Part shown: piece after piece, positions 1 to 36,180 of the stretch
Numbering within the stretch: the first letter of the stretch is position 1
Layout of the letters: every line of letters starts with the position of its first letter
IMG/VR virus record: IMGVR_UViG_3300033145_000902
Location: 1-36,180 of that record
Source: a virus
Strand: one strand, 5' to 3'
DNA length: 36,180 bases
Made by a program: the position numbers and the translations under genes
Notes under the pieces: generated by a model
What the model saw: the letters and a program-made list of their open reading frames with translations, nothing else
Databases searched by the model: none
What the model was told of the DNA's origin: nothing

Positions 1-114
1 AGGCTCAAGGAACCACTGAGGAGCGAAAGGCTTACAGGGAAAGACTACTTGAGGAAAATCCTGAGTTTGCTGTTGCAAGGCGAGAGCGTGAGGCTTATGG
101 TCTACTGCTACCAG
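1..114. repeat. Left copy of 114-bp terminal direct repeat (contig overlap)
   Basis: Bases 1-114 are identical to 36067-36180. This is the signature of a circular assembly or a circularly permuted genome, with the overlap left in by the assembler. It lies inside the coding sequence of the giant protein and keeps its frame, so it is not an intergenic terminal repeat. Confidence 0.95.
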
Positions 115-18934: not shown

Positions 18935-19846
18935 TTAACTTATTTTTTCCAGTAACAATACACGCTCACATCTGAATTTACCGTCTGTGTTATATGGTAT
19001 AACTACTCCAGGCAACCATTCCCATTTTATGAGAACCTTCCAAACGCCAGTTTCGGGTAAGTATTCCCACGTTCTGGTTGCCACGTTCACTCCGCAGGCA
19101 CAATCTACCGTAGGTAGAGGGTTTACAACCTCGGATATTTCTTCCCCTAGTTCTATTTTCCATGATGATGGCGGTGGGAAATTAGAGCCGAAAGCTTTAT
19201 ATGCAATATAACCATCTGTTGTTTTTTCAAGGTTCTTTGCCATCCAGTCTACAGGAGATAGTAATCCTCTTATACGACTCAGGTCGGCACGACTCAGGTC
19301 GGCATGACTCAGGTTGGCATCACTCAGGTTGGCATCACTCAGGTTGGCATCACTCAGGTTGGCATGACTCAGGTTGGCACGACTCAGGTCGGCATGACTC
19401 AGGTCGGCATCACTCAGGTTGGCATCACTCAGGTTGGCACGACTCAGGTCGGCACGACTCAGGTCGGCACGACTCAGGTCGGCACGACTCAGGTCGGCAT
19501 GACTCAGGTCGGCACGACTCAGGTCGGCACGACTCAGGTTGGCATGACTCAGGTTGGCATCACTCAGGTTGGCATCACTCAGGTTGGCACGACTCAGGTC
19601 GGCATAACGCAGGTCGGCACGACTCAGGTCGGCACGACTCAGGTCGGCATCACTCAGGTTGGCATCACTCAGGTTGGCATCACTCAGGTTGGCACGACTC
19701 AGGTCGGCATGACTCAGGTCGGCATCACTCAGGTTGGCACGACTCAGGTCGGCATAACGCAGGTCGGCACGACTCAGGTCGGCTTTGGTGCCACCGTTGT
19801 TCTCTAGCCATTTTTTATGTTCATTTATTATAGCTTGTATATCCAT
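18935..19846 (-). CDS. Pentapeptide-repeat protein with C-terminal globular domain
   Basis: 303 residues. After a 21-residue helical N-terminus ([17 protein letters not shown]), residues 22-191 are 34 consecutive pentapeptides of the form A(D/N)LSx, the signature of the right-handed quadrilateral beta-helix. Residues 192-303 are a globular domain with [20 protein letters not shown], then [15 protein letters not shown] and WKVLIKWEW, like the end domains of several phage pentapeptide proteins (DUF5758-type). Pentapeptide proteins such as MfpA and Qnr mimic DNA and bind gyrase, so protection or inhibition of host topoisomerase is possible but unproven. Ribosome binding site CGGAGG. Confidence 0.85.
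19274..19783 (-). repeat. Tandem array of 34 x 15-bp units encoding the pentapeptides
   Basis: The 510-bp array repeats a unit read on the plus strand as ACTCAGGT(C/T)GGCA(C/T)(G/C). Variation is limited to two or three positions, so the DNA itself is nearly uniform. An order of unit types ([20 protein letters not shown]) occurs at units 1-4 and 11-14, suggesting a larger duplication. Such an array can change copy number by slippage or recombination. Confidence 0.85.
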
Positions 19847-22347: not shown

Positions 22348-23561
22348 AGTCGATAGTTGAGAAGATAGAGCCAGAAGGTTTTATTGCCTCGTACCTTGAC
22401 TGGGCGCATGACCTAACCGATGCATCCAGCGAGTTCCACCTGGGGACTGCCTTAACCTGTCTCTCTTCATGTATTGGCAGCAAGGTTGTTTACATGGGCT
22501 TTGGCGGTCAAAGGCAGTGGCCTAATCTTTATACTCTGTTGCTCGGCCCGTCTGGCATATCCCGCAAGACAACCTGCATCAAGATGGGGCAATCTTTAGT
22601 TAGTGCCGTTGAGCCCCTGTTAATTGCCGATGGTATAGAGACAAGAGAAAAGTTTATCAGTTACCTGGCTTCGCAACCAACTGTCATGTGGCCAATACCT
22701 GAATTTTCTGCCGTCTTGGGGGCATGGACACGCTCTTATGCTGATGGTTACAAGGAGTTTATAACGGACTGGTTCGACCCGGAAGAGTTAAGACACCGGC
22801 GGTTGGTGGGGAATAAACTGGCAACAGACAATTCTGCTGCTAATGTGCGGGTAGAAAAAGCAGCGATAAATATATTAGCTGGCTCTACACTCGAATGGTT
22901 GAGGGAAAAACTGACAGAAGGGGACCTGAAAGGCGGGCTAATGGGCAGGTTTCTTATATTCCCTTCTGGGGAAAAGAGGAAAGACCCAGGGCTTAATGCC
23001 GACCCTGACAGGGTTAAACGGCAAGCTCTGGTCGACTATCTGAAAGCGATTTACAACATGAATCCCAGCTGGGTAGATGTGAGGGGAGTCATCGACCAGT
23101 TCAACACATGGCAAGCTAAGGCACAGAGGCATCTTGAGCTAAACTATAATCCTGAAACTGTAGGCTTCCAGTCAAGGGCGGTGATGCACACGTTGAAACT
23201 GGCTGTATTAATCTGCATAGCGGAGCATCCGACACCTGAGCCGAAATACATCCTAACTGAACGTCAGTTAAAAAAGGCTATCGCGCTGGGCGACTGGCTA
23301 ATTGAGAAAATGATAGACCTTGCGGAGACTGGCTTTACCAAGTCCAAGACTGAGAGTTATGTGCAGAAGCTGTTACAGATGGCAAGCAGCAATAGCGGGG
23401 TGAAGCGCAGTGATGCCATGCGGATGATGCATTGCAGTTCAAGGGAGTTCGAAGTCATTGTTCAAACGGCGGTTGAGCGGGGGCAGTTAAGGGTAGAAAA
23501 GGAAACAGGGCAGACGAAGCCTGCCCTGTGGTATAAGTCAGTTCCGAGGTCTGATGATTAA
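22344..23561 (+). CDS. DUF3987-like replicative helicase/primase-helicase with C-terminal winged-helix-like domain
   Basis: 405 residues; ATG overlaps the methyltransferase stop (ATGA). The start, FIASYLDWAHDLTDASSEFH then LGTALTCLSSCIGSK, and a Walker A-like LLGPSGISRKTT near residues 67-78 match DUF3987 phage/plasmid helicases, as do ILAGSTLEWLREKL and GGLMGRFLIFPSGEK (about residues 176-210). Residues 342-398 form a separate winged-helix-like domain that is 21 of 57 residues identical, ungapped, to the stand-alone protein at 25117..25413. With no polymerase in the genome, this is the main replication protein visible. It ends 1 base from the convergent gene. Confidence 0.8.
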   Translation: MKSIVEKIEPEGFIASYLDWAHDLTDASSEFHLGTALTCLSSCIGSKVVYMGFGGQRQWPNLYTLLLGPSGISRKTTCIKMGQSLVSAVEPLLIADGIETREKFISYLASQPTVMWPIPEFSAVLGAWTRSYADGYKEFITDWFDPEELRHRRLVGNKLATDNSAANVRVEKAAINILAGSTLEWLREKLTEGDLKGGLMGRFLIFPSGEKRKDPGLNADPDRVKRQALVDYLKAIYNMNPSWVDVRGVIDQFNTWQAKAQRHLELNYNPETVGFQSRAVMHTLKLAVLICIAEHPTPEPKYILTERQLKKAIALGDWLIEKMIDLAETGFTKSKTESYVQKLLQMASSNSGVKRSDAMRMMHCSSREFEVIVQTAVERGQLRVEKETGQTKPALWYKSVPRSDD

Positions 23562-23562
23562 C

Positions 23563-24270
23563 TCACTCTGCGCTTTCCTCCCTGATAGCTTTCTCGATAA
23601 GGGCAACAAGCCCGATATTTTCTGCTAACGCTGGATTAGCTTCTACAGCTGACTCTGCTGCCCATACTGCTGCCCTTGCTGCTGCCCATACTGATACCCA
23701 TGCTGATACCTCTGCTGACCATGCTGCCGTCCATGCTGATTTTATTACTGCCTCAACGGCTGCCCTTGCTGCCCACGCTGCTCTTATTGCAGCCCATACT
23801 GCTGACTCTGCTGCCTCTGCTGCTGCCCCTCTTATCGTTGCTACTGCCCATGCTACTTTCAATGCTGCTTCCGATGTTCTATCCTTGCCAGATAGCCAGT
23901 TATTTGCCCATGTTGTGAATCCTTCATCGTGATAGACTTCCAAAGCGCAGAGGATGGCGAATCTTACCCGCTGGTTAGTGGTAATCTCTGGCAAGGGTAT
24001 CTGCCTGATAGTAGTGCATTGTTTCACACCGACTGCTAGCTTATCATTTGCCACAACCTTTTTCACCCGGCACTCCCACAATATGGGGTCGCTAAAGTTA
24101 GCATGACACGGGTTAAACATGGCTGCCTTAAGGGGGTGGTCGTAAACGTGGATAACATCTTCTGAGCATAGATTGTTGCCTTTGCCCTTTGCCTTATGAG
24201 TAACATTCTCTCCCCATTGAGTGTTGTTTTCAGTCTGGTAATTCTCGTCGGTTAGCTTGTAGTACTTCAT
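23563..24270 (-). CDS. DUF7666-like protein with Ala/Trp-rich C-terminal helix repeats
   Basis: 235 residues; ATG overlaps the TGA of the upstream gene. Residues 1-80 (YYKLTDENYQTENNTQWGEN, then CSEDVIHVYDHPLKAAMFNP and DPILWECRV) match the DUF7666 domain of phage proteins. Residues about 130-215 are highly repetitive, with Ala and Trp in short helical units such as AAIRAAWAARAAVEAV. They may form a helical bundle or fibre. The DNA of this part is correspondingly repetitive (GCTGCC runs). Function unknown. Confidence 0.7.
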   Translation of the reverse strand: MKYYKLTDENYQTENNTQWGENVTHKAKGKGNNLCSEDVIHVYDHPLKAAMFNPCHANFSDPILWECRVKKVVANDKLAVGVKQCTTIRQIPLPEITTNQRVRFAILCALEVYHDEGFTTWANNWLSGKDRTSEAALKVAWAVATIRGAAAEAAESAVWAAIRAAWAARAAVEAVIKSAWTAAWSAEVSAWVSVWAAARAAVWAAESAVEANPALAENIGLVALIEKAIREESAE

Positions 24271-24425
24271 TGTATTACACTTTCCTTCTTTACATAGTTT
24301 TCTTTTGAGTTTATCCTACGCCTACCACACACCCCGCACCTGTACACTGGCACTTTTCTTGTACCGCTCCAGGTATAGCCATTTTTCATCATCGGCTTAT
24401 TGCAGCATATCGGTCTGTCTGCCAT
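24267..24425 (-). CDS. InsA-like zinc ribbon protein, 52 aa
   Basis: ATG 24425 with GGGAGG upstream, and its TGA overlaps the next ATG. MADRPICCNKPMMKNGYTW then VYRCGVCGRRRIN is the short zinc-ribbon pattern (CC...CxxC) seen in InsA-type and related transposon/phage ribbons. It is a coupled operon member, so I take it as real. Possible DNA-binding role. Confidence 0.6.
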   Translation of the reverse strand: MADRPICCNKPMMKNGYTWSGTRKVPVYRCGVCGRRRINSKENYVKKESVIQ

Positions 24426-24440
24426 AGCTTAGTTACCTCC

Positions 24441-24675
24441 CTTATTTATTTGGGCAGTTTCATTATGCGGAGCAGTCGTTCAGCATCAGATTTATCAAAG
24501 TCCCAGTCTGCTTCGCCAGCATCGTATTCGTTGCCAGCAGTGTCAACCATCATGTCATATACCATGTCAACATCAACGCCTTCCCAATCATCCCCACCAG
24601 CTAAATTCTCTCCCCATTCCCTGAGTTCCCTGTCTGTTAGTTTTCTCATTGTATCCCCCCTTATTTATTTGGGCA
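24441..24675. repeat. 16-bp direct repeat flanking a small gene
   Basis: CTTATTTATTTGGGCA occurs at 24441-24456 and 24660-24675. On the minus strand the first copy contains the last codons and stop of the 24446..24649 gene plus the next leader; the second copy lies in the leader of that same gene. The second looks like a remnant of another gene end (LPK-stop), so one gene or leader was probably duplicated or inserted here. Confidence 0.75.
24446..24649 (-). CDS. Acidic small protein, 67 aa
   Basis: AAGGGGGG site before ATG. The protein is very acidic (about 19 Asp/Glu; WEGVDVDMVYDMMVDTAGNEY in the centre) and ends LLRIMKLPK. Small strongly acidic phage proteins are often DNA mimics or inhibitors of host nucleic acid enzymes; the composition permits that but does not show it. 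Confidence 0.55.
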   Translation of the reverse strand: MRKLTDRELREWGENLAGGDDWEGVDVDMVYDMMVDTAGNEYDAGEADWDFDKSDAERLLRIMKLPK

Positions 24676-24703
24676 ATTTAGAGACTTGCCCCGGTTGAAT
24701 GGA

Positions 24704-24946
24704 TTAGTTGATTATGATACCGTGCTGATGGCAGCGTTCCTTGAAATCATCAATGGCTTGCCCCAATGACAGGTCATAGTGACCGAGTATAAAGCAATTC
24801 GTGTCTTCCCCCATGACCTCAAGATGCGTGCGATATGGAGTTACCTTAGCTATCGGGTCATTCCACATCACCACCCGGATTGGCTGACAATTTAGTTCTA
24901 TTAACCAATCGCTGACCAGATTTACATTGACATCGTTGGAATTCAT
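24704..24946 (-). CDS. Hypothetical protein, 80 aa
   Basis: Strong AAGGAGG site, first gene behind the promoter at 24982-25011. Contains WLIELNCQPIRVVMWND and LGHYDLSLGQAIDDFKERC, an alternating beta-alpha pattern. No family recognised. Confidence 0.6.
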   Translation of the reverse strand: MNSNDVNVNLVSDWLIELNCQPIRVVMWNDPIAKVTPYRTHLEVMGEDTNCFILGHYDLSLGQAIDDFKERCHQHGIIIN

Positions 24947-24981
24947 CTCCTGTCCCTCCTTGGAAATCTTTTTTTATTTTC

Positions 24982-25011
24982 AGAATACACTATCTTGCCT
25001 TGCCTTGTCAA
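24982..25011 (-). promoter_or_regulatory. Promoter of the 24.9-23.6 kb minus operon
   Basis: On the minus strand a perfect TTGACA (25011-25006), an 18-base spacer and TATTCT (24987-24982). It lies 36 bases ahead of the ATG at 24946. The remaining sequence up to 25116 has no gene; it holds a GTTAGC/GCTAAC inverted repeat near 25068-25113. Confidence 0.65.
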
Positions 25012-25116
25012 ACTTTACTTTAGTGATTTACAGCAACCTTAATACCTATTCCTCCTAATATCTCTTGTTAGCTCGCTTATTCTCCCATTTTCACCTATCC
25101 CATTGAGGCTAACTCG

Positions 25117-25413
25117 TTACGGCTTTCTCTTTGGATATAACTGTTCTGTTACATCTGTCCGCATGGATTGCTGGGAGTCCAGAGCGTCCTTCGCCCCTGG
25201 CTCTGCTACGTAATACTGCACGGGCTTTGTTCTCCCTTTCTCGCGGTGTATGGTTATTAACTCCTCGTATACCGCCTTTTCCACCAGCTCCTCCATCTCT
25301 ATGGCGTTTACATGCAATAACTGCATAGCTCTACTATGCCTTATCCCCCCACTCCCACTTGCTAACTGTACTAATTTCGGTAATTTCCATTCCAATACTT
25401 TAACTTCTTTCAT
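25117..25413 (-). CDS. Stand-alone winged-helix-like protein, paralogue of the helicase C-terminus
   Basis: 98 residues, GGAGGTG site. Residues 13-69 (KLVQLASGSGGIRHSRAMQL and on to GRTKPVQYYV) align without gaps to residues 342-398 of the helicase, about 21 of 57 identical, with the A-M, TKP and wing positions kept. The pattern of three helices and a beta wing suggests DNA binding. The C-terminal 25 residues carry RTDVTEQLYP, similar to the N-terminus of the 25882 product. It is transcribed from a strong promoter at the edge of the 12-bp repeat array, so it is a likely array-binding regulator or origin protein. Confidence 0.7.
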   Translation of the reverse strand: MKEVKVLEWKLPKLVQLASGSGGIRHSRAMQLLHVNAIEMEELVEKAVYEELITIHREKGRTKPVQYYVAEPGAKDALDSQQSMRTDVTEQLYPKRKP

Positions 25414-25431: not shown

Positions 25432-25461
25432 AATATACCATGTTGCTAGTTTTCTTGTCAA
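25432..25461 (-). promoter_or_regulatory. Strong promoter of the stand-alone winged-helix gene
   Basis: On the minus strand a perfect TTGACA (25461-25456), an 18-base spacer and extended -10 TGG-TATATT (TATATT at 25437-25432). The first 12-bp repeat copy lies 30 bases upstream of the -35, a position suited to control. Confidence 0.7.
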
Positions 25462-25490: not shown

Positions 25491-25659
25491 GATATTGCAC
25501 AAAAATTAGAGATATTTCACAAAAAAAGATTGTGAAATATTAAGCGTGGGTTGAAACTTTTTGTGCTATATCTTGTGCTATTTCTGGCATAATCTGTGCT
25601 ATTTCTCCGTGCAATATCCCCCCCCGAATTCGTGCGTGGCTGTGCGTAATATAGCACAA
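25491..25659. repeat. Iteron-like array: eight copies of TTGTGCWATWTC
   Basis: Copies on the minus strand are 25491-25502, 25511-25522 and 25648-25659. Copies on the plus strand are 25530-25541, 25561-25572, 25573-25584, 25594-25605 and 25607-25618. They differ from the consensus at 0-3 positions. Copies at 25511 and 25530 form an inverted pair with 10-bp perfect arms (25512-25521 and 25531-25540). Two copies abut at 25572/25573. An AT-rich stretch follows (25661-25750). This is the layout of a replication origin or a multi-site operator. Confidence 0.75.
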
Positions 25660-25702
25660 GATTTTTGATGCTCTTATATTAAAATATATTTTTGTGATTT
25701 TT

Positions 25703-25731
25703 TTGACCTTTATTTAGATATGATATATATA
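25703..25731 (+). promoter_or_regulatory. Candidate promoter of the plus-strand packaging/virion genes
   Basis: TTGACC (25703-25708), a 17-base spacer and TATATA (25726-25731) inside the AT-rich stretch. It reads towards 25882 and the terminase genes. With the minus-strand promoter at 25432-25461 it frames the repeat array, so both could be under the same control. Confidence 0.5.
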
Positions 25732-25832
25732 TGAGATAAATTGTTGTTAATTATCTCTTCCTCCCCCCTCCCCCTTAATAGAACGTAGTGCTTACAAGGC
25801 ATACAGAAGCAGCTGGGCAAAAAGGCGGATTA

Positions 25833-25874
25833 ATGTATATGCTTGACTTTTTCTCCCCAGTGTGCTATCTCTAA
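25833..25874 (+). CDS. Possible 13-residue leader peptide
   Basis: ATG 25833 follows AAGGCGG at about 5 bases and the frame (MYMLDFFSPVCYL) ends at TAA 25874, 7 bases before the next ATG, which itself lacks a binding site. Translation of the leader could deliver ribosomes to the gene at 25882. This is a weak call. Confidence 0.25.
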   Translation: MYMLDFFSPVCYL

Positions 25875-25881
25875 TAGTAAT

Positions 25882-26193
25882 ATGGAAGATGAACATGCAC
25901 TAACGGAACCTGAGAGGATTGATGTTACCCAGCTGATATACCCTGAGTTGTCGTTCGAAACGGAAGAGACACAGCCTATAATGGATGTGGAGGAGCGGAA
26001 GCGCAGGCTGTCCAGGTTCGCCAGGGAAAACATACTCACTCCATCGGGTCGCCCCCACCGTGCGCAGAATGTTGAATCCATTAAGGAACTGAATAGAATG
26101 GAAGGCTCGTATGCCCCCACCAGGCACCAGCATGCCCATGTGGTTTTTGAAGTGAAGATGGTGGAGAAAGGAAAACGTACCGATGAGAATTAG
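25882..26193 (+). CDS. Hypothetical protein, 103 aa, possible small terminase subunit
   Basis: I choose ATG 25882, which opens MEDEHALTEPERIDVTQLIY; a TTG at 25843 would add 13 residues. The basic middle (ERKRRLSRFARENILTPSGR) and PHRAQNVESIKELNRMEGSY resemble short DNA-binding packaging proteins, and its place first in the packaging cluster fits a small terminase. No helix-turn-helix is clear, so the role is tentative. The RIDVTQLIYP segment resembles the RTDVTEQLYP of the 25117 product. Confidence 0.5.
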   Translation: MEDEHALTEPERIDVTQLIYPELSFETEETQPIMDVEERKRRLSRFARENILTPSGRPHRAQNVESIKELNRMEGSYAPTRHQHAHVVFEVKMVEKGKRTDEN

Positions 26194-26659: not shown

Positions 26660-26857
26660 ATGCGACGGATAGACTTTCTTGATGTAGACATACAGGTAGC
26701 GATAGTTGATTTAGGGAGGAAGCAGCAGAGGATAGCGTCTGAGTGTATGAAGGTATGGGATAGTATGAGTGGGAAGTTACCGAGCTTTCAATCTTTTTGT
26801 GAGATGTACATGAGGGAGAGGATGGAGGGTTTAATAGGGAAGGTTAGGTGGAATTGA
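26660..26857 (+). CDS. Hypothetical protein, 65 aa
   Basis: GGGGGG run upstream of ATG as a binding site. Helical product (VAIVDLGRKQQRIASECMKVWD) with two Cys and several Met; ends overlapping the terminase GTG start by 10 bases. No family recognised. Confidence 0.55.
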   Translation: MRRIDFLDVDIQVAIVDLGRKQQRIASECMKVWDSMSGKLPSFQSFCEMYMRERMEGLIGKVRWN

Positions 26858-28290
26858 TAGGAGGCACTACGGAAGTTCAAGACATAGAGAAGCAGGTAGT
26901 AGAGATAGAGGTACCCAAGCCTTATGGTGGGTGGCAGGAAGAGTTTGTGCGGTGTGTAGCAAAGAGGCAGGTAATTAAAGCTGGTAGGCAAAGTGGGAAG
27001 ACGTATGGTGCGGGGATAAAGGCGTGTTTGGCGTTTTTGGGTATATGCTGGAGTTGTTTAGGGGAAGGGTGTGGGTTATGTGATAATACGGGGCGGACGA
27101 ATCAGAAGCGGGTATTATATGCAGCGCCCACGGCGGAGCAGACGGACATGTTCTGGTATGAGGTAACGAATGCGCTCATGCCTGGGATAGAGACGGGGCA
27201 GTTCAAGAAAGATGAGACAGAGAGGACGATAGAGGTTGTTGGGACGAACATTGTATTGAAAGCCAAGACAGCGTGGAACGCCAACAGTTTAAGAGGTGGC
27301 AACTGGGATGTGCTGATACTTGAGGAGTTCCAGTTAATGAATGAGGATACATGGACTGATGTAGGGGCAGCCATGTTGCTTTTATCTGATGGCACGGCGA
27401 TATTTATTTTCACTCCGCCTTCGTTAAAAAGTGAGGGAGTAAGTAAAGCGAAAGACCCCCGTCATGCCAGCAAGTTATTTCAGAAGGCTCTGGCTGATAA
27501 GAGTGGGAGATACAAAGTTTTTCATGCAACCTCAATGGATAACCCGAAGTTGAGTAAGGAAGCACTGGATGAAATTACGGGCGATATGTCGATGGACACA
27601 TACCGCCGTGAGATTTTAGCGCAGGATGACGAAATTGAGCAATCGTGGCTCGTTTACGGTAAGTTTGACGATACCCAGTGCATGATTAAAAGGTTTCCCA
27701 TTCCTGATAATTGGACAGTGTTTAGCGGTCATGATTTTGGGGAAGCCAACCATGCTGCCCTGTTTGTGGCACAGGTTAGACTGCCCTTACCCCCGCAAGC
27801 TCCTGCTTACTTAAGGGTTGGTGATTACGTGGCGTTTGCCGAGTATGTTCCAAAGGCTGGGTCGTCGGCGGAAAGGCACATTGAGCATTACAAAGACATC
27901 ATGGGTAGAAAGGATGATGGGACACTCAGGTTAAGGTTGGAGAGGGCTGTTGGCGGGAATGTAACCACTGAGGAAGAGACGAGGCAGTTGTACCGCAGGC
28001 TTGGCTGGAATATCAAGGCACCAGAGATAACAAGGGTAAAGCTACAGATAGATAGGGCGATGGCGATTGTAGAACAAAAGCAACTCTATGTCTTTGATGA
28101 CTTGCATAATCTGTTGAGGGAAATTCACGATTGTATGTGGGAAATAGACCCGGAGACAAAGAAGCCATTGGACAAAGTAAAGGATGAGGCAAAGTATCAC
28201 TTACTGTCCTGCTGGCGTTACTTATCAACGGTACTGATACCCAAAGTCCCATTAAGAACGGGGCGGGGAGCACAGGTCTGGAATATGTAG
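26848..28290 (+). CDS. terL: Large terminase subunit with Cys4 insertion
   Basis: 480 residues from GTG 26848 with AGGGAAGG upstream. The Walker A (KAGRQSGKT, residues 44-52) and Walker B (DVLILEEFQ near residue 150) of the packaging ATPase are present, then a coupling segment (IFIFTPPS). The nuclease domain begins with SGHDFGEANHAALFV near residue 297 and ends with DEAKYHLLSCWRYL near residue 450, which supply its acidic residues. Between Walker A and the next strand sits CWSCLGEGCGLC (residues 67-78), a C-x2-C-x4-C-x2-C zinc-ribbon-like insertion not normal for terminases. It cuts and pumps phage DNA into proheads through the portal. Confidence 0.9.
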   Translation: MELIGGTTEVQDIEKQVVEIEVPKPYGGWQEEFVRCVAKRQVIKAGRQSGKTYGAGIKACLAFLGICWSCLGEGCGLCDNTGRTNQKRVLYAAPTAEQTDMFWYEVTNALMPGIETGQFKKDETERTIEVVGTNIVLKAKTAWNANSLRGGNWDVLILEEFQLMNEDTWTDVGAAMLLLSDGTAIFIFTPPSLKSEGVSKAKDPRHASKLFQKALADKSGRYKVFHATSMDNPKLSKEALDEITGDMSMDTYRREILAQDDEIEQSWLVYGKFDDTQCMIKRFPIPDNWTVFSGHDFGEANHAALFVAQVRLPLPPQAPAYLRVGDYVAFAEYVPKAGSSAERHIEHYKDIMGRKDDGTLRLRLERAVGGNVTTEEETRQLYRRLGWNIKAPEITRVKLQIDRAMAIVEQKQLYVFDDLHNLLREIHDCMWEIDPETKKPLDKVKDEAKYHLLSCWRYLSTVLIPKVPLRTGRGAQVWNM

Positions 28291-30269: not shown

Positions 30270-33200
30270 ATGGCAACACCAAAAATTGGAGGGCTGCGCT
30301 CATACCGTACAGGTGCAGGTGAAAAACCACCAGAGCCTAAAGAGCCTGCGCTGGTCAAACCACGTCTTATCACTATACCACGTGAGCCTGAAGATGAATT
30401 AACTAAACATCTGCGTAAAATCCTTCAGATACCAGGCGCTGAAAGACGGCTAACCCAATTTGGAGAGATTGAGCTCACACCTGAATCTCTGAAGCAGGCT
30501 GGATTGGAACTGGATATTGGAGAAGGCTCGCACCTAAAGGTAAAACTTGGAGACAAAGGCTACCAGTTCTTTGAAGTTCCGCCTGCTGAAGCTGAGGGAA
30601 TTCCTGGAATCAAGATAAAACTTCCCGAAACCATGACGACTGAGGGGTGGAGTGTTACCGATGAGGGCTTGCTGAAATCAGCTACTGGGGAGCTATTCAC
30701 ACCTGAGGAACTGGAACAGCAAAGACAGACTGACCTGCGTGAATTTGAGCAGACCATTTTGCCTCAGTTACCAGAGGAATTGCGTGCTCAGTATGGCAAT
30801 ATCCCGATGGAAGATTTCATGGCAAAACTTGAAGAATACAGGCAGCCGTTCATTGAAAGACAGGAAAACCTTAATGAAGCCTTTTTTGCCGTGTTCCCAG
30901 AATTTGAGAAACTGGGGGAGGGTGCCGTAAGCGAATGGATGACTAAACTCGAAACCGACGAGAAATTCCAGGAAGATTTTGTTACCATGCTTCTGCAACG
31001 GGGTAGAACTACCGAGACCGAGAATCTGCTCAAGGCAATGGGGGCTGATGATACTCAGGTGCAGGAATTCTTTGCCGAACCTGAAGTTGAGCCTCCCGAA
31101 TTAGAGGCAAGACTTCCAATAACCGAGCAGGCAATTAGTGATATTAATGAGGCATGGAGGGGGTTTACTACTGGCGAGTTCAAGTGGAGTGAACTTGGGA
31201 AAGTTGCACTGGCAGGGCTTGGGACTGCTGGTGCTTTTATGGAGAAATATATCGGGAGACCCTGGGAAGGGTTTTTAATGGAGTCGGCAGCAAGGCTAAT
31301 GAACGCTGTTGGGCAAGGCGATGAATGGAGTAATTGGATTGTGCAATCCTCCGATGTTCTCCGAAAGAAGTATGGCTGGGCGGGTATTTTCTCTGAAGAC
31401 ATATCCTATATGTGGGACAGGGTAAAGTTTGCTGCCGAGAAAATGGGGCAACCATCGTGGGCGTTGACAGCGCTGGAATGGGCAAATCCTGCTTACCTTA
31501 TCCCCGTTGGTGAAGCGATAGGTATTGGTGCTCGCTTTACTTCACAGATAACAGTGCTTGGTAAGGTATTGACCAAAACTGCTGCTGGAGTTCAGGCTAT
31601 CGAAAGAGGTTTGGCTTATCCAATAGCCAAGCCTCTTGAACTAGGAGCTAAAGGTGTTCTCAAGGTTGGCGAGAAACTGGGCGAGAACGCAGCCCGAAGG
31701 CTTGTTGAGCAAGCTGATAATCTACTTCTCACAATCCCAGCAAGTGATGATATTATCAAAGGAGTGCTGGTTGATAACTGGCAAAAGAGAGTGCTGACTA
31801 CAGCAGCTAGAGTCCCAATAATCAAGACTGGCATTCAAAAAGTGTTGGGTAATCGCATCCTTATAAAGAAGGAAAGCCAGATACTCGAAGATATTGTTGG
31901 CAGGGCTTCTGTAGTTAATGCAGAAATCAGGCGCATGGGCATCAATGCTAAAGCAGTTAAAGTTTGGGAGTTGCGAGACATTGACCTGAATCCAATCAAA
32001 TCTTTTGGCTTCAATAATCAGGCTTTTTCTAAGAAAATGTTTAGCAGGTTACTACCTGAATATGCTGGTGAAAAAGATATAGCAGGCACTTTGGAACACA
32101 TTTTTACCAATCCCCAAAAGTACGACTGGACGGGTATGTCAAAGCAACTGAACTATGTTACAAGAATTCATGAAGTCAACACTGAGGTTCTTAACCTGCT
32201 TAAAGCAGAGGGTGTGCCTCCTAAGAACTTAACCGAAGATTGGTGGATTCACAGGGTTGTGCAAGGCAAGTTTGACCCTGAAGGCGAATTGATTGCTATA
32301 AGAGGTAAACCAGGTGTAAAACCAGGGCGAGTTGGCGCAAGACCCTCTTATGAAATGCACCGCAAGGCTCCGACTATGGCTGAGGGAATTGCTTGGGGAG
32401 TCAAGTATAACCAAAACCCCGAAGTAGCGGTTGCCTCTTATATAGAGGAAGCATTTAAGAAGATAGCCGATAGTAGAGCGGTCAAGATGGTTGAGGAGTT
32501 TGGTATCTTGCCATCTGAAAGACTGGCAGAGCGATTCCCCGAAGTGGTAGCAAGAGCGGAGTTGACCAAAGTTGAACTTGCCGATGCTGCTAAATTTGGC
32601 TCGGTCATAAATCGTGCTCTACGAGGTGAGAGAATTCCTGAACAAACTCTCAGGTCTATAGAAAAGAGATTTCCTGTTCTTGGCGCAAGGTTGAGGTCGG
32701 CAGTTAAGGGAACACCACTAAAGCCAATGGATGAAGCTGCTAATCTTGCTGAAACTGGAGCAAGGGAATTATTTGATTACCCGCAAAAGATACCTCCAAA
32801 GATAGTTTCTGAGGCTGAATGGGTTACAATGTCTGTGCCAGATAGAGTCGCTTTGGTAAAACAGGTTGGGCTTGAAGGCAAAGTAGGTTCCAAATCATGG
32901 AAAGCATTAAGTGCTAAAGAAAAAGAGGCTTTGACTACAATTGAAGTAATCAAACCCAAAGTAGAAGGGATTAAGGGGCTTGAAGGTGAGTCTGCTATAA
33001 AGAGAATTAAATACGAACCTCCACCAGCCAAGACACCAGATGCTCGCAAGTCTGAATTGGAAGCACTGCGCCGAGAAGTTAAGGCGCTTACAGAGGCAAG
33101 AAAAGCACCTTACTGGCAGGCTAAAGCTGAACGTGCTCTCAGAATGGAGCAGGTGAGGCAACCTGAAATCGGTGAAGGCTTTCTACTCCAGCCTTTTGCT

Positions 33201-36180
33201 AGTGGCAGGATATTCAAGCAAGATTTTATAGACGCCTTCAACAAGTTCTTTGGACATGATGCTGGCTCAAGTGTTCTGAAAGCAACCAGTGATGTGGCTG
33301 GTATTCTCAGAATGGCTAGAGCGTCTCTTGACTTCTCGGCTATGGCAATCCAAGGTTTGCCATCTTGGGGACTGGCTCATGCCTATGCCATGTTTAACCC
33401 GAAGATAGGTATGAGGATGCTCGGTGCGTGGTATAAAGCCTTTTTTGAGTCAACAAGGGCGTTCTTTGATGCCAGTGTGGTAGCTGGATTCATGAAAAAG
33501 AACCAGCAGATAGCTTTACAGAGAATATCATTCGGGGGAAGTTCCAGGGTGGTTGACTACTTTGCTGCACTGGAAGCGAGAACTGGTATCGGTGGTAAAG
33601 CAGAATGGCTGATGGAGAAACTACCATTGAAACCTTACCATCGGGCAGAGACAGCCTTTTTTGGCGCTGGCGAGATGGTGAGAGATGAGTTCTGGCGCAT
33701 ACTATCTCCGAAGGCGATTAAAAGCGGTAAGGAATTCGAGTTGGCTCGCTTCCTTGACAGGATAACAGGGATTAGCGATGCAGCTTCTCTTGGCGTTCCT
33801 CTTACAACAAGACAGTTGGAGCAGACATTCGCCTGGTTTGCGCCGAATTATACCAGGGCTTGTCTCACCGTTCTGGCAGATATATTCAGGGGGGGCATGA
33901 CTGGCGCTGAGGCGAGGAAAGCATTAGGCGGTATGATAGGCGCTGGTTCCATCATGTATACAGGTGTTCAGTTTGCCATGCAAAAGAGTGAAGGCAAGTC
34001 TGATGAAGAGGCATGGGATACTGTCTTGGGAGGCTTCGGTGTTCATGCCGACCCGATAACAGGTGAGGTTGAATGGCAACCGACAGGGCAGTTTATGACT
34101 ATTAAGGTCGGTAATTATAACTTTGGATTCGGCGGGTTCTGGTATGGGCTATTAAGATTGGCTGGCAATATTAATGAAGCAATCAACAGTGTGGGTGATA
34201 AAGAGCCAATTGACCTTGTACGCATTATAAAGCATGGTAGTTTTAACAAGCAGGATAATCCATTTATCTACTGGTGGTATAGTCGCTCATCACCACTATT
34301 CGGCACGGGCTTTGAACTGGCTACCGGCAAGGACTTTTTGGGTTATCCTATTGAGACGAAAGAACAGTACCTGGAGTATATTCTTACCAGATTTGAGCCG
34401 ATATGGGCAGAGCAAGGATTAAACTGGATGGTGCCAGGTTTTGCCAGAGACTATGAAATCCCTGAAGGTGCTGCCAGAGCAGCTGTCATTCCAGCAGAAC
34501 TGTTCGGTTTAAGGACGTTCCCTGAAAGCCAGTGGGTAAAATTCTACGATAAGGCTAACGATTATATACAGAGAATACCTGCGGAGGAATTGGATGAAAA
34601 GCAAATAGAGGCATGGCAACAGGGGAAGCTCACATGGAAACATCTGACTGAGATGCAGAAGGCTACTCTATTTCAACGCTACCCCGAATTGGAGGATGAA
34701 TATACCAAAGCTCTAAGTGATAGCCAGTTGAGACAGCGAGAGCATTGGAAGGCATGGGAGGGGAGGATTGAGGAGGAACGTAACATTTATTATAAACGCA
34801 TAGAAGAGCTAACCCAAAGGTTAATCTCTGGAGATATAGATAGCAGGGAATACAGGGAGATGGCTGGCGAGGCTGGACAAAATTATGGAGCAGCTTTGGA
34901 CTCTATTGAGCGAGACCCAAACTATGCTATGATTTACGATTACTTTGCGCAGAAGCAGGCTGAAGGCGATAAGTATGGATTTCGGGATGATATCATGCTC
35001 GGCGAGTATCAGTCTGAAATACTTTACGCTGAGGATTTGGTTGATAGCAAGGGCGACTATGATTGGGAAGAAAGAAACCGCAGGATAGATGCATTTATCG
35101 AGAAGTGGGGGCAGGATGGATATGACAGGATTCAAGCCTATCTTCAGCAGGAAAAGGGGCACAAGGGGCTGAATGAAGTATGGATTAGAAAAGGAACTGA
35201 TATTGAAGCATTAAGTCGTGGATACTGGGAATTACCCTATAAGCCGATAATAGAGATGGATGAGGGTGATGAAGCTGATGGGAATATACCTGCTGAGTAC
35301 CTGGCTTTATGGAAGCAGTATCAGGATACTGAAGATAAAGAGGCATTTCTTGAGGAACATCCAGAGCTGGCGAAGGATTGGCGTGCTGAGTGGCGCAAAG
35401 AGCACCCCGAAGATGATGCTCGGCTAGCCTTGTGGGGCTACGGTGGTAAGTTGCAATCAATGGAAGCCTATAACCTTGTAGAGAAGTGGAGCAAGGAACT
35501 CGGCATACCATTAGAGCAGATGGGATTGGGCATACCTCCGAGAACTTTGGTTAAGCCTTATTTTGAATATCTGGATAAGCAGAGGGAATACGGGGGTAAT
35601 AGTCCTGAAGCCAAGCTGTTCAGGGTAGAGAACAATGGCTTTGAGGATTGGGCTGAGGAAAACTGGGGTTGGAAACCTGTTAAGGAACACTCTGAAGCAT
35701 TGCGGATAAGCGTCAAATATCGTGAGCAGGATAAGGAATATGAATCTATTCAAATGGAAGATGATAAGGCGCAGCGTGAAGCAAGGGCTGAATATCTCGC
35801 CAAAAACGATGAGTACAGGATTGCACGTAAAAGGCGTGAGGCATACCAACTTGAATTGCCAGACGAAATGGTAGATAACTATGTAGAGTATAGTGAACTT
35901 TCTCAATATGGTTACTGGCGAGAAAGATACCGCAAAGAGAATCCCGAATTTAATGCCACTATCAGCAAAGTTCTTGAATTGCAACCAATAGAACCTGATA
36001 AAATACCTGATGCCCGCTATGACGAAATTTACGAGAAATACAAAGACCTGTTCAGGCAGTACGAAGAGGCTCAAGGAACCACTGAGGAGCGAAAGGCTTA
36101 CAGGGAAAGACTACTTGAGGAAAATCCTGAGTTTGCTGTTGCAAGGCGAGAGCGTGAGGCTTATGGTCTACTGCTACCAG
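30270..36180 (+). CDS. Giant virion-type protein, large-polyvalent-protein-like; wraps across the contig ends
   Basis: Open from ATG 30270 (AGAGG upstream) to the window end and on into 1..803; 2,199 residues when joined. It starts with a charged, Glu/Pro-rich region (residues 1-290), then hydrophobic helices near residues 310, 405 and 1225 (for example GGMIGAGSIMYTGVQFAM). Around residues 1310-1430 a block (FIYWWYSRSSPLFGTGFELA, TGKDFLGYP, VIPAELFGLRTFP) resembles C-terminal parts of large polyvalent phage proteins. The end holds three approximately 95-residue repeats. No tape measure exists elsewhere, and the position between portal and scaffold is that of ejected internal proteins, so it may be carried in the capsid and injected with DNA. 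The function is inferred. Confidence 0.8.
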   Translation, partial: MATPKIGGLRSYRTGAGEKPPEPKEPALVKPRLITIPREPEDELTKHLRKILQIPGAERRLTQFGEIELTPESLKQAGLELDIGEGSHLKVKLGDKGYQFFEVPPAEAEGIPGIKIKLPETMTTEGWSVTDEGLLKSATGELFTPEELEQQRQTDLREFEQTILPQLPEELRAQYGNIPMEDFMAKLEEYRQPFIERQENLNEAFFAVFPEFEKLGEGAVSEWMTKLETDEKFQEDFVTMLLQRGRTTETENLLKAMGADDTQVQEFFAEPEVEPPELEARLPITEQAISDINEAWRGFTTGEFKWSELGKVALAGLGTAGAFMEKYIGRPWEGFLMESAARLMNAVGQGDEWSNWIVQSSDVLRKKYGWAGIFSEDISYMWDRVKFAAEKMGQPSWALTALEWANPAYLIPVGEAIGIGARFTSQITVLGKVLTKTAAGVQAIERGLAYPIAKPLELGAKGVLKVGEKLGENAARRLVEQADNLLLTIPASDDIIKGVLVDNWQKRVLTTAARVPIIKTGIQKVLGNRILIKKESQILEDIVGRASVVNAEIRRMGINAKAVKVWELRDIDLNPIKSFGFNNQAFSKKMFSRLLPEYAGEKDIAGTLEHIFTNPQKYDWTGMSKQLNYVTRIHEVNTEVLNLLKAEGVPPKNLTEDWWIHRVVQGKFDPEGELIAIRGKPGVKPGRVGARPSYEMHRKAPTMAEGIAWGVKYNQNPEVAVASYIEEAFKKIADSRAVKMVEEFGILPSERLAERFPEVVARAELTKVELADAAKFGSVINRALRGERIPEQTLRSIEKRFPVLGARLRSAVKGTPLKPMDEAANLAETGARELFDYPQKIPPKIVSEAEWVTMSVPDRVALVKQVGLEGKVGSKSWKALSAKEKEALTTIEVIKPKVEGIKGLEGESAIKRIKYEPPPAKTPDARKSELEALRREVKALTEARKAPYWQAKAERALRMEQVRQPEIGEGFLLQPFASGRIFKQDFIDAFNKFFGHDAGSSVLKATSDVAGILRMARASLDFSAMAIQGLPSWGLAHAYAMFNPKIGMRMLGAWYKAFFESTRAFFDASVVAGFMKKNQQIALQRISFGGSSRVVDYFAALEARTGIGGKAEWLMEKLPLKPYHRAETAFFGAGEMVRDEFWRILSPKAIKSGKEFELARFLDRITGISDAASLGVPLTTRQLEQTFAWFAPNYTRACLTVLADIFRGGMTGAEARKALGGMIGAGSIMYTGVQFAMQKSEGKSDEEAWDTVLGGFGVHADPITGEVEWQPTGQFMTIKVGNYNFGFGGFWYGLLRLAGNINEAINSVGDKEPIDLVRIIKHGSFNKQDNPFIYWWYSRSSPLFGTGFELATGKDFLGYPIETKEQYLEYILTRFEPIWAEQGLNWMVPGFARDYEIPEGAARAAVIPAELFGLRTFPESQWVKFYDKANDYIQRIPAEELDEKQIEAWQQGKLTWKHLTEMQKATLFQRYPELEDEYTKALSDSQLRQREHWKAWEGRIEEERNIYYKRIEELTQRLISGDIDSREYREMAGEAGQNYGAALDSIERDPNYAMIYDYFAQKQAEGDKYGFRDDIMLGEYQSEILYAEDLVDSKGDYDWEERNRRIDAFIEKWGQDGYDRIQAYLQQEKGHKGLNEVWIRKGTDIEALSRGYWELPYKPIIEMDEGDEADGNIPAEYLALWKQYQDTEDKEAFLEEHPELAKDWRAEWRKEHPEDDARLALWGYGGKLQSMEAYNLVEKWSKELGIPLEQMGLGIPPRTLVKPYFEYLDKQREYGGNSPEAKLFRVENNGFEDWAEENWGWKPVKEHSEALRISVKYREQDKEYESIQMEDDKAQREARAEYLAKNDEYRIARKRREAYQLELPDEMVDNYVEYSELSQYGYWRERYRKENPEFNATISKVLELQPIEPDKIPDARYDEIYEKYKDLFRQYEEAQGTTEERKAYRERLLEENPEFAVARREREAYGLLLP
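36067..36180. repeat. Right copy of 114-bp terminal direct repeat
   Basis: Identical to bases 1-114 and in the coding frame of the giant protein, which shows that the ends join. Unique genome length is therefore 36,066 bp. Confidence 0.95.

Follow-up and report, generated by a model that had tools for sequence, protein, structure and literature searches.

A DUF3987 helicase and a 98-residue protein encoded in the same phage genome share a domain, and the gene for the small protein lies at the edge of an array of short repeats. What might a detached copy of a helicase tail do at such a place? The initial annotation proposed that both proteins bind the same repeats, the helicase for loading at a replication origin and the free copy as competitor or regulator. 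Here the proposal is examined in the window, i.e., the whole stretch of viral DNA that was analysed (36,180 nucleotides), and in genomes carrying related helicases; the observation was confirmed, and the interpretation found partial support. Coordinates are collected in Table 1.

Table 1. Features of the window and iteron arrays of other helicase loci
Feature	Position	Strand	Basis
DUF3987 helicase, 405 aa	22344-23561	+	PF13148, E 3.1e-15; PHROG primase/helicase families
C-terminal winged-helix tail of helicase, residues 342-405	23367-23558	+	Alignment, AlphaFold2 model
Leftward gene block, free copy first, between helicase stop and array	23563-25413	-	ORF lists
Free winged-helix protein, 98 aa, helicase-tail paralog	25117-25413	-	Alignment, AlphaFold2 model, Foldseek
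Promoter-like site of free gene, TTGACA-18-TATATT	25432-25461	-	Consensus match only
Cluster of eight TGTGMWATWTC-like sites, both orientations (iteron-like array)	25491-25658		Motif counts against shuffles
AT maximum of the genome (82% over 100 bp), candidate unwinding element	25656-25760		AT content
Outlying ninth site, TGTGCTATCTC	25861-25871	+	Motif match
Small-terminase-like ORF	25882-26193	+	Comparison with G003 small terminase
Iteron arrays after tailed helicases in other loci	L046 9553-9745; L048 3100-3305; L047 7770-7945; L049 10438-10620; L086 7323-7600

The phage and its closest relative by structural genes

The two ends of the window (1-114 and 36067-36180) are identical over 114 bp, and a giant open reading frame (30270-36179; protein of about 2,200 residues) runs in frame across the junction into positions 1-803. 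Thus, the phage genome is very probably circular and complete in this record, at about 36,066 bp (36.07 kb). Only two hints to the host emerged, a 47% terminase match in a Dehalococcoidia MAG and a partial match in a Methanosarcina virus, MetMV. The latter involves the large terminase (26848-28290), 57.6% identical over 174 residues and far above other phage matches, and raises the possibility of exchange between bacterial phages and archaeal viruses.

By structural genes the closest phage is G003 (36,217 bp), with terminase and portal proteins 74% and 80% identical, respectively. Its genome yielded no match to the helicase or to the free copy and no cluster of TGTGMWATWTC sites; instead, it carries SSB, ERF and a DnaB/KaiC-like ATPase gene beside an AT-rich repeat stretch. 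Apparently, one replication module has replaced another. The end of the G003 record (L030/L031; 35623-36216) reads by eye as a homoserine kinase (thrB) gene, which suggests an integrated phage or a carried-along host gene.

The free protein is a diverged copy of the helicase tail

The helicase scores 56.7 bits against PF13148, above the curated cut-off of 27. DUF3987 is the only Pfam domain found in the protein, which has no primase domain; its sequence includes a Walker A-like GPSGISRKTT, and unwinding activity is predicted. The free gene has an ATG start, a ribosome site (GGAGGTG) and, directly upstream, a near-consensus promoter (11/12 match, with TG before the -10 box). At the other end of the leftward block, positions 23563-24270 encode a 235-residue protein with an Ala/Trp-rich repeat stretch at about 23655-23828 and no family match.

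The gap-free alignment of the small protein to helicase residues 342-398, with 21 identities in 57 positions, was reproduced and found to extend to residue 405 (23/64 identical, 36%; BLASTP E 1e-13). None of 2000 shuffles reached its score of 125, the best scoring 53. The corresponding DNA segments are only 54% identical, and mismatches are commonest at the third codon position (27, 22 and 39 of 64 codons at positions 1, 2 and 3, respectively). The low DNA identity and the third-position excess suggest that both proteins have been maintained and speak against a recent duplication of the DNA; such an excess would be expected of protein-coding copies under selection. No Pfam, NCBIfam or PHROG family matched the free protein above cut-off or better than E 0.01.

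In AlphaFold2 models built from shallow alignments, both the free protein (core pLDDT about 79-88) and the tail (about 75-83) adopt a canonical winged helix. In both, three helices are accompanied by a β-hairpin wing, and every element of one lies at a constant offset of 329 residues from its counterpart in the other. The notion of a shared domain, which differing folds would have contradicted, is thus borne out by structure prediction. Outside the tail the model of the full helicase was poor and unreliable (pLDDT 44), and only the tail part was therefore used. Foldseek matched the free protein to winged helices in the PDB, including those of PadR, MarR and TFIIE; resemblance to TFIIE alpha is weak in both sequence and fold. 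The tail probably binds DNA.

The wing motif G-x-T-K-P is conserved in the two copies. The start of helix 3, the recognition helix, reads S-S-R-E-F in the helicase tail and N-A-I-E-M in the free copy, so that a basic residue (Arg) in the former is Ile in the latter; the tails that go with arrays in L046-L049 and L086 (see below) likewise have a basic residue at this position. In the free copy the recognition helix is acidic (A-I-E-M-E-E), within a domain of neutral overall charge; the helicase tail is basic (+3, pI 9.4).

An iteron-like array adjoins the AT maximum of the genome

Eight sites, each with 0-1 mismatch to TGTGMWATWTC, lie within 168 bp (25491-, 25511-, 25531+, 25562+, 25574+, 25595+, 25608+ and 25648-, the sign giving the orientation). 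Shuffling the genome 40 times never gave a 180-bp span with more than three such sites. Spacing is irregular, at 12-40 bp. What had been described as a 12-bp array is therefore a genuine repeat array without the 12-bp tandem form: a 12-bp distance separates just one of the pairs of sites. The strongest repeats of the window outside the array fall in protein-coding repeats. Positions 19276-19783 hold 34 copies of a 15-bp repeat inside a minus-strand frame (18935-19846) that reads as a pentapeptide-repeat protein, the long overlapping ORFs of the opposite strand being by-products of the repeat.

The array sits in a 468-bp gap between divergent genes. The free gene does lie at its edge, its start being 78 bp from the first repeat site. 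The repeats begin 30 bp upstream of the -35 box and leave the core promoter of the free gene uncovered; hence, simple autorepression by promoter blocking is not indicated. Of the hallmarks of iteron origins, repeats clustered beyond chance and an AT-rich neighbour are both present, whereas an array directly beside the initiator gene is not, the helicase stop lying 1.9 kb away.

Some related helicases are accompanied by iterons in chromosomal loci

The comparison set comprised 30 other DUF3987-helicase loci: six phage genomes, three viral contigs and 21 chromosomal loci from genomes in the class and phylum of the Dehalococcoidia MAG. In most of them a winged-helix-like tail can be made out by eye at the C-terminus of the helicase. 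Helicases and control ORFs were scored uniformly for arrays against one threshold. Among the chromosomal loci, an array lies directly downstream of the stop codon in 8/21 helicases, as compared to 11/268 control ORFs from the same loci (Fisher p 9e-6, a value that overstates independence since the eight cases fall in two related groups, L046-L049 and L075, L084-L086). Four of the eleven control matches correspond to the second array in L084 and L085. Two further loci, L079 and L083, stay under the threshold, yet the first- or second-ranked repeat window follows the helicase stop, with repeats of other cores. In several chromosomal loci the densest repeats are those directly after the helicase stop.

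The arrays of L046-L048 and L075/L084/L085/L086 contain 10-13 sites with TGACA-type cores, 12 of them at nearly fixed positions in L084-L086; the repeats of L049 read CTGTCACA. These arrays of chromosomal elements combine inverted and direct iterons and are candidate origins. CHC2/Toprim primase genes neighbour the arrays in L047 and L075, and the helicase itself is fused to an AEP primase in L079 and to a weak Toprim match in L049. Such a setting is the one expected of an origin.

The location of the arrays directly downstream of the helicase stop supports the idea that tail and iterons would together form an initiation module, and a role of the tail as origin binder is moderately supported. 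The origin-like character of the array in the window gains backing from these iterons directly beside related tailed helicases. In the nine viral helicase loci, no array next to the helicase equalled those of the chromosomal loci in clarity, and a search of the window for the TGACA-type and other iteron motifs of the relatives revealed no cluster. Among the papers searched, none mentions DUF3987 together with iterons; the one on PICMI satellites, in which a DUF3987 primase is used, is silent on iterons.

The free copy was found only in this phage

If the free copy were a regular partner of the module, it might be expected to co-occur with tailed helicases and repeats, as the initial annotation had it. 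The survey went against this. No acceptable free paralog turned up in the 30 other helicase loci (the chromosomal ones covered over 6-20 kb around each helicase), and searches with the free protein through phages, plasmids and 393 genomes from the class to which the Dehalococcoidia MAG belongs gave no match. Viral contigs scanned with one protein at a time, free copy or helicase, were also without a match, and profile searches with the domain or the helicase gave no match or a few distant loci. Provisionally, then, the free copy is seen only in this phage, a picture in which very close records may be hidden. Since it is absent from all relatives examined, it does not appear to be essential to the module; equally, none of these relatives has a free copy without repeats.

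Three candidates were not accepted as free copies. The one in L050 (E 0.04) is an antisense ORF and the one in L080 (E 0.013) looks by eye like an excisionase-like HTH protein. In MW202554, the small HTH protein encoded next to the helicase does not qualify either; the one match to the tail of that phage's helicase came from a short overlapping frame (E 0.38).

Possible roles of the free protein

The explanation that we consider best, and hold tentatively, is that of an origin with a tail-loaded helicase, at which the free winged helix regulates initiation. The C-terminal winged helix of the helicase would recognise the iteron-like sites and the motor would be loaded at the array, the adjoining AT-rich stretch melting first. 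The free protein, made from its own promoter at the array edge, would occupy the array or act on the helicase tail there, by competition or in mixed complexes, and may thereby tune the timing of phage DNA copying. Binding, origin activity and the direction of regulation are what we infer here, and regulator of initiation is the best reading of the free copy. The different start of helix 3 counts against simple competition: the free copy may bind other sites, bind weakly, or act via the helicase. Also speaking against this explanation are the 1.9 kb between helicase and array, the lack of equally clear arrays in viral loci and the other cores (TGACA types) of the relatives' arrays.

A different view, unlikely but deserving attention, is that the helicase tail gave rise to a transcription regulator, the free protein, with the array providing operators for the divergent leftward block and the rightward packaging and late genes while replication starts elsewhere. 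The position of the array between divergent genes would fit, as would sites in both orientations at roughly helical spacings and the presence of PadR and MarR regulators among the closest solved folds. However, the repeats leave the core promoter of the free gene uncovered, and an origin is favoured by the AT-rich neighbour and by the iterons that go with tailed helicases. One role does not exclude the other.

Less probable, yet a serious rival, is a part in packaging, the array being a recognition site beside the terminase genes. The array lies immediately upstream of the small- and large-terminase genes, and the G003 small terminase (PF03592) aligns to the small-terminase-like ORF through its C-terminal part only; the N-terminal HTH region of the G003 homolog is absent from this ORF, and the free winged helix could supply the missing DNA-binding part. 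Lambda terminase, which uses a winged helix at repeated sites, offers a precedent. Against this, the paralogy of the free protein is to the helicase tail and not to any terminase subunit, and iterons accompany tailed helicases in elements with no terminase noted in the vicinity. Finally, the winged helices could be protein-contact modules (for hexamer assembly or partner binding), the free copy acting on the helicase and the closeness of the array being incidental; this we regard as improbable. The acidic recognition helix and neutral charge of the free copy, the weak TFIIE alpha resemblance and the many winged helices of replication proteins that do not bind DNA are set against a wing motif conserved in both copies, a basic helicase tail and the iteron arrays that accompany tailed helicases.

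Relation to known replication systems

Like iteron plasmid origins, the window has clustered short repeats beside an AT-rich stretch, but its sites occur in both orientations at irregular spacing, and motor and origin-binding part would reside in one protein. Satellite phage P4 offers a similar arrangement: an origin-binding alpha helicase, an iteron origin and a small phage-encoded replication regulator, Cnr. P4 alpha combines origin recognition, helicase and primase, whereas the window helicase carries no primase and the small protein duplicates the helicase tail.

The winged-helix tails of PrimPol-PV1-type primase-helicases may recognise origins, as has been suggested (PMC5862659); DUF3987 (PF13148) helicases of phages and mobile elements likewise join a helicase to a C-terminal winged helix with this proposed function. 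Compared with these systems, the window helicase has no primase part, the phage has an extra, free copy of the tail, and the array is tied to the tail by comparison only. In plasmid pIGRK, the full-length initiator RepR is accompanied by a shortened form, RepR′, that binds origin DNA and inhibits replication (PMC6854812). These antagonistic long and short Rep forms are a precedent for the free copy as a brake; yet RepR′ arises from an in-frame internal start of the same gene, whereas the free copy has a gene of its own, encoded on the opposite strand and diverged to 36% identity.

DUF3987 is common in phages and mobile elements and has no assigned function in Pfam. A winged helix with adjacent iterons provides a testable one, origin recognition plus unwinding in one protein, and the link between tail and iterons offers a way to predict origins. 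Possibly, though we would sooner doubt it than rely on it, winged-helix-tailed DUF3987 proteins constitute a broad, unrecognised class of iteron-type initiator-helicases in phages and integrated elements, and this phage's detached copy of the origin-binding domain is a dedicated replication regulator beside the origin. As a detached paralog of the binding domain, the small protein would bring to a phage a type of compact competitor or regulator, with its own gene, that is known from a few plasmids.
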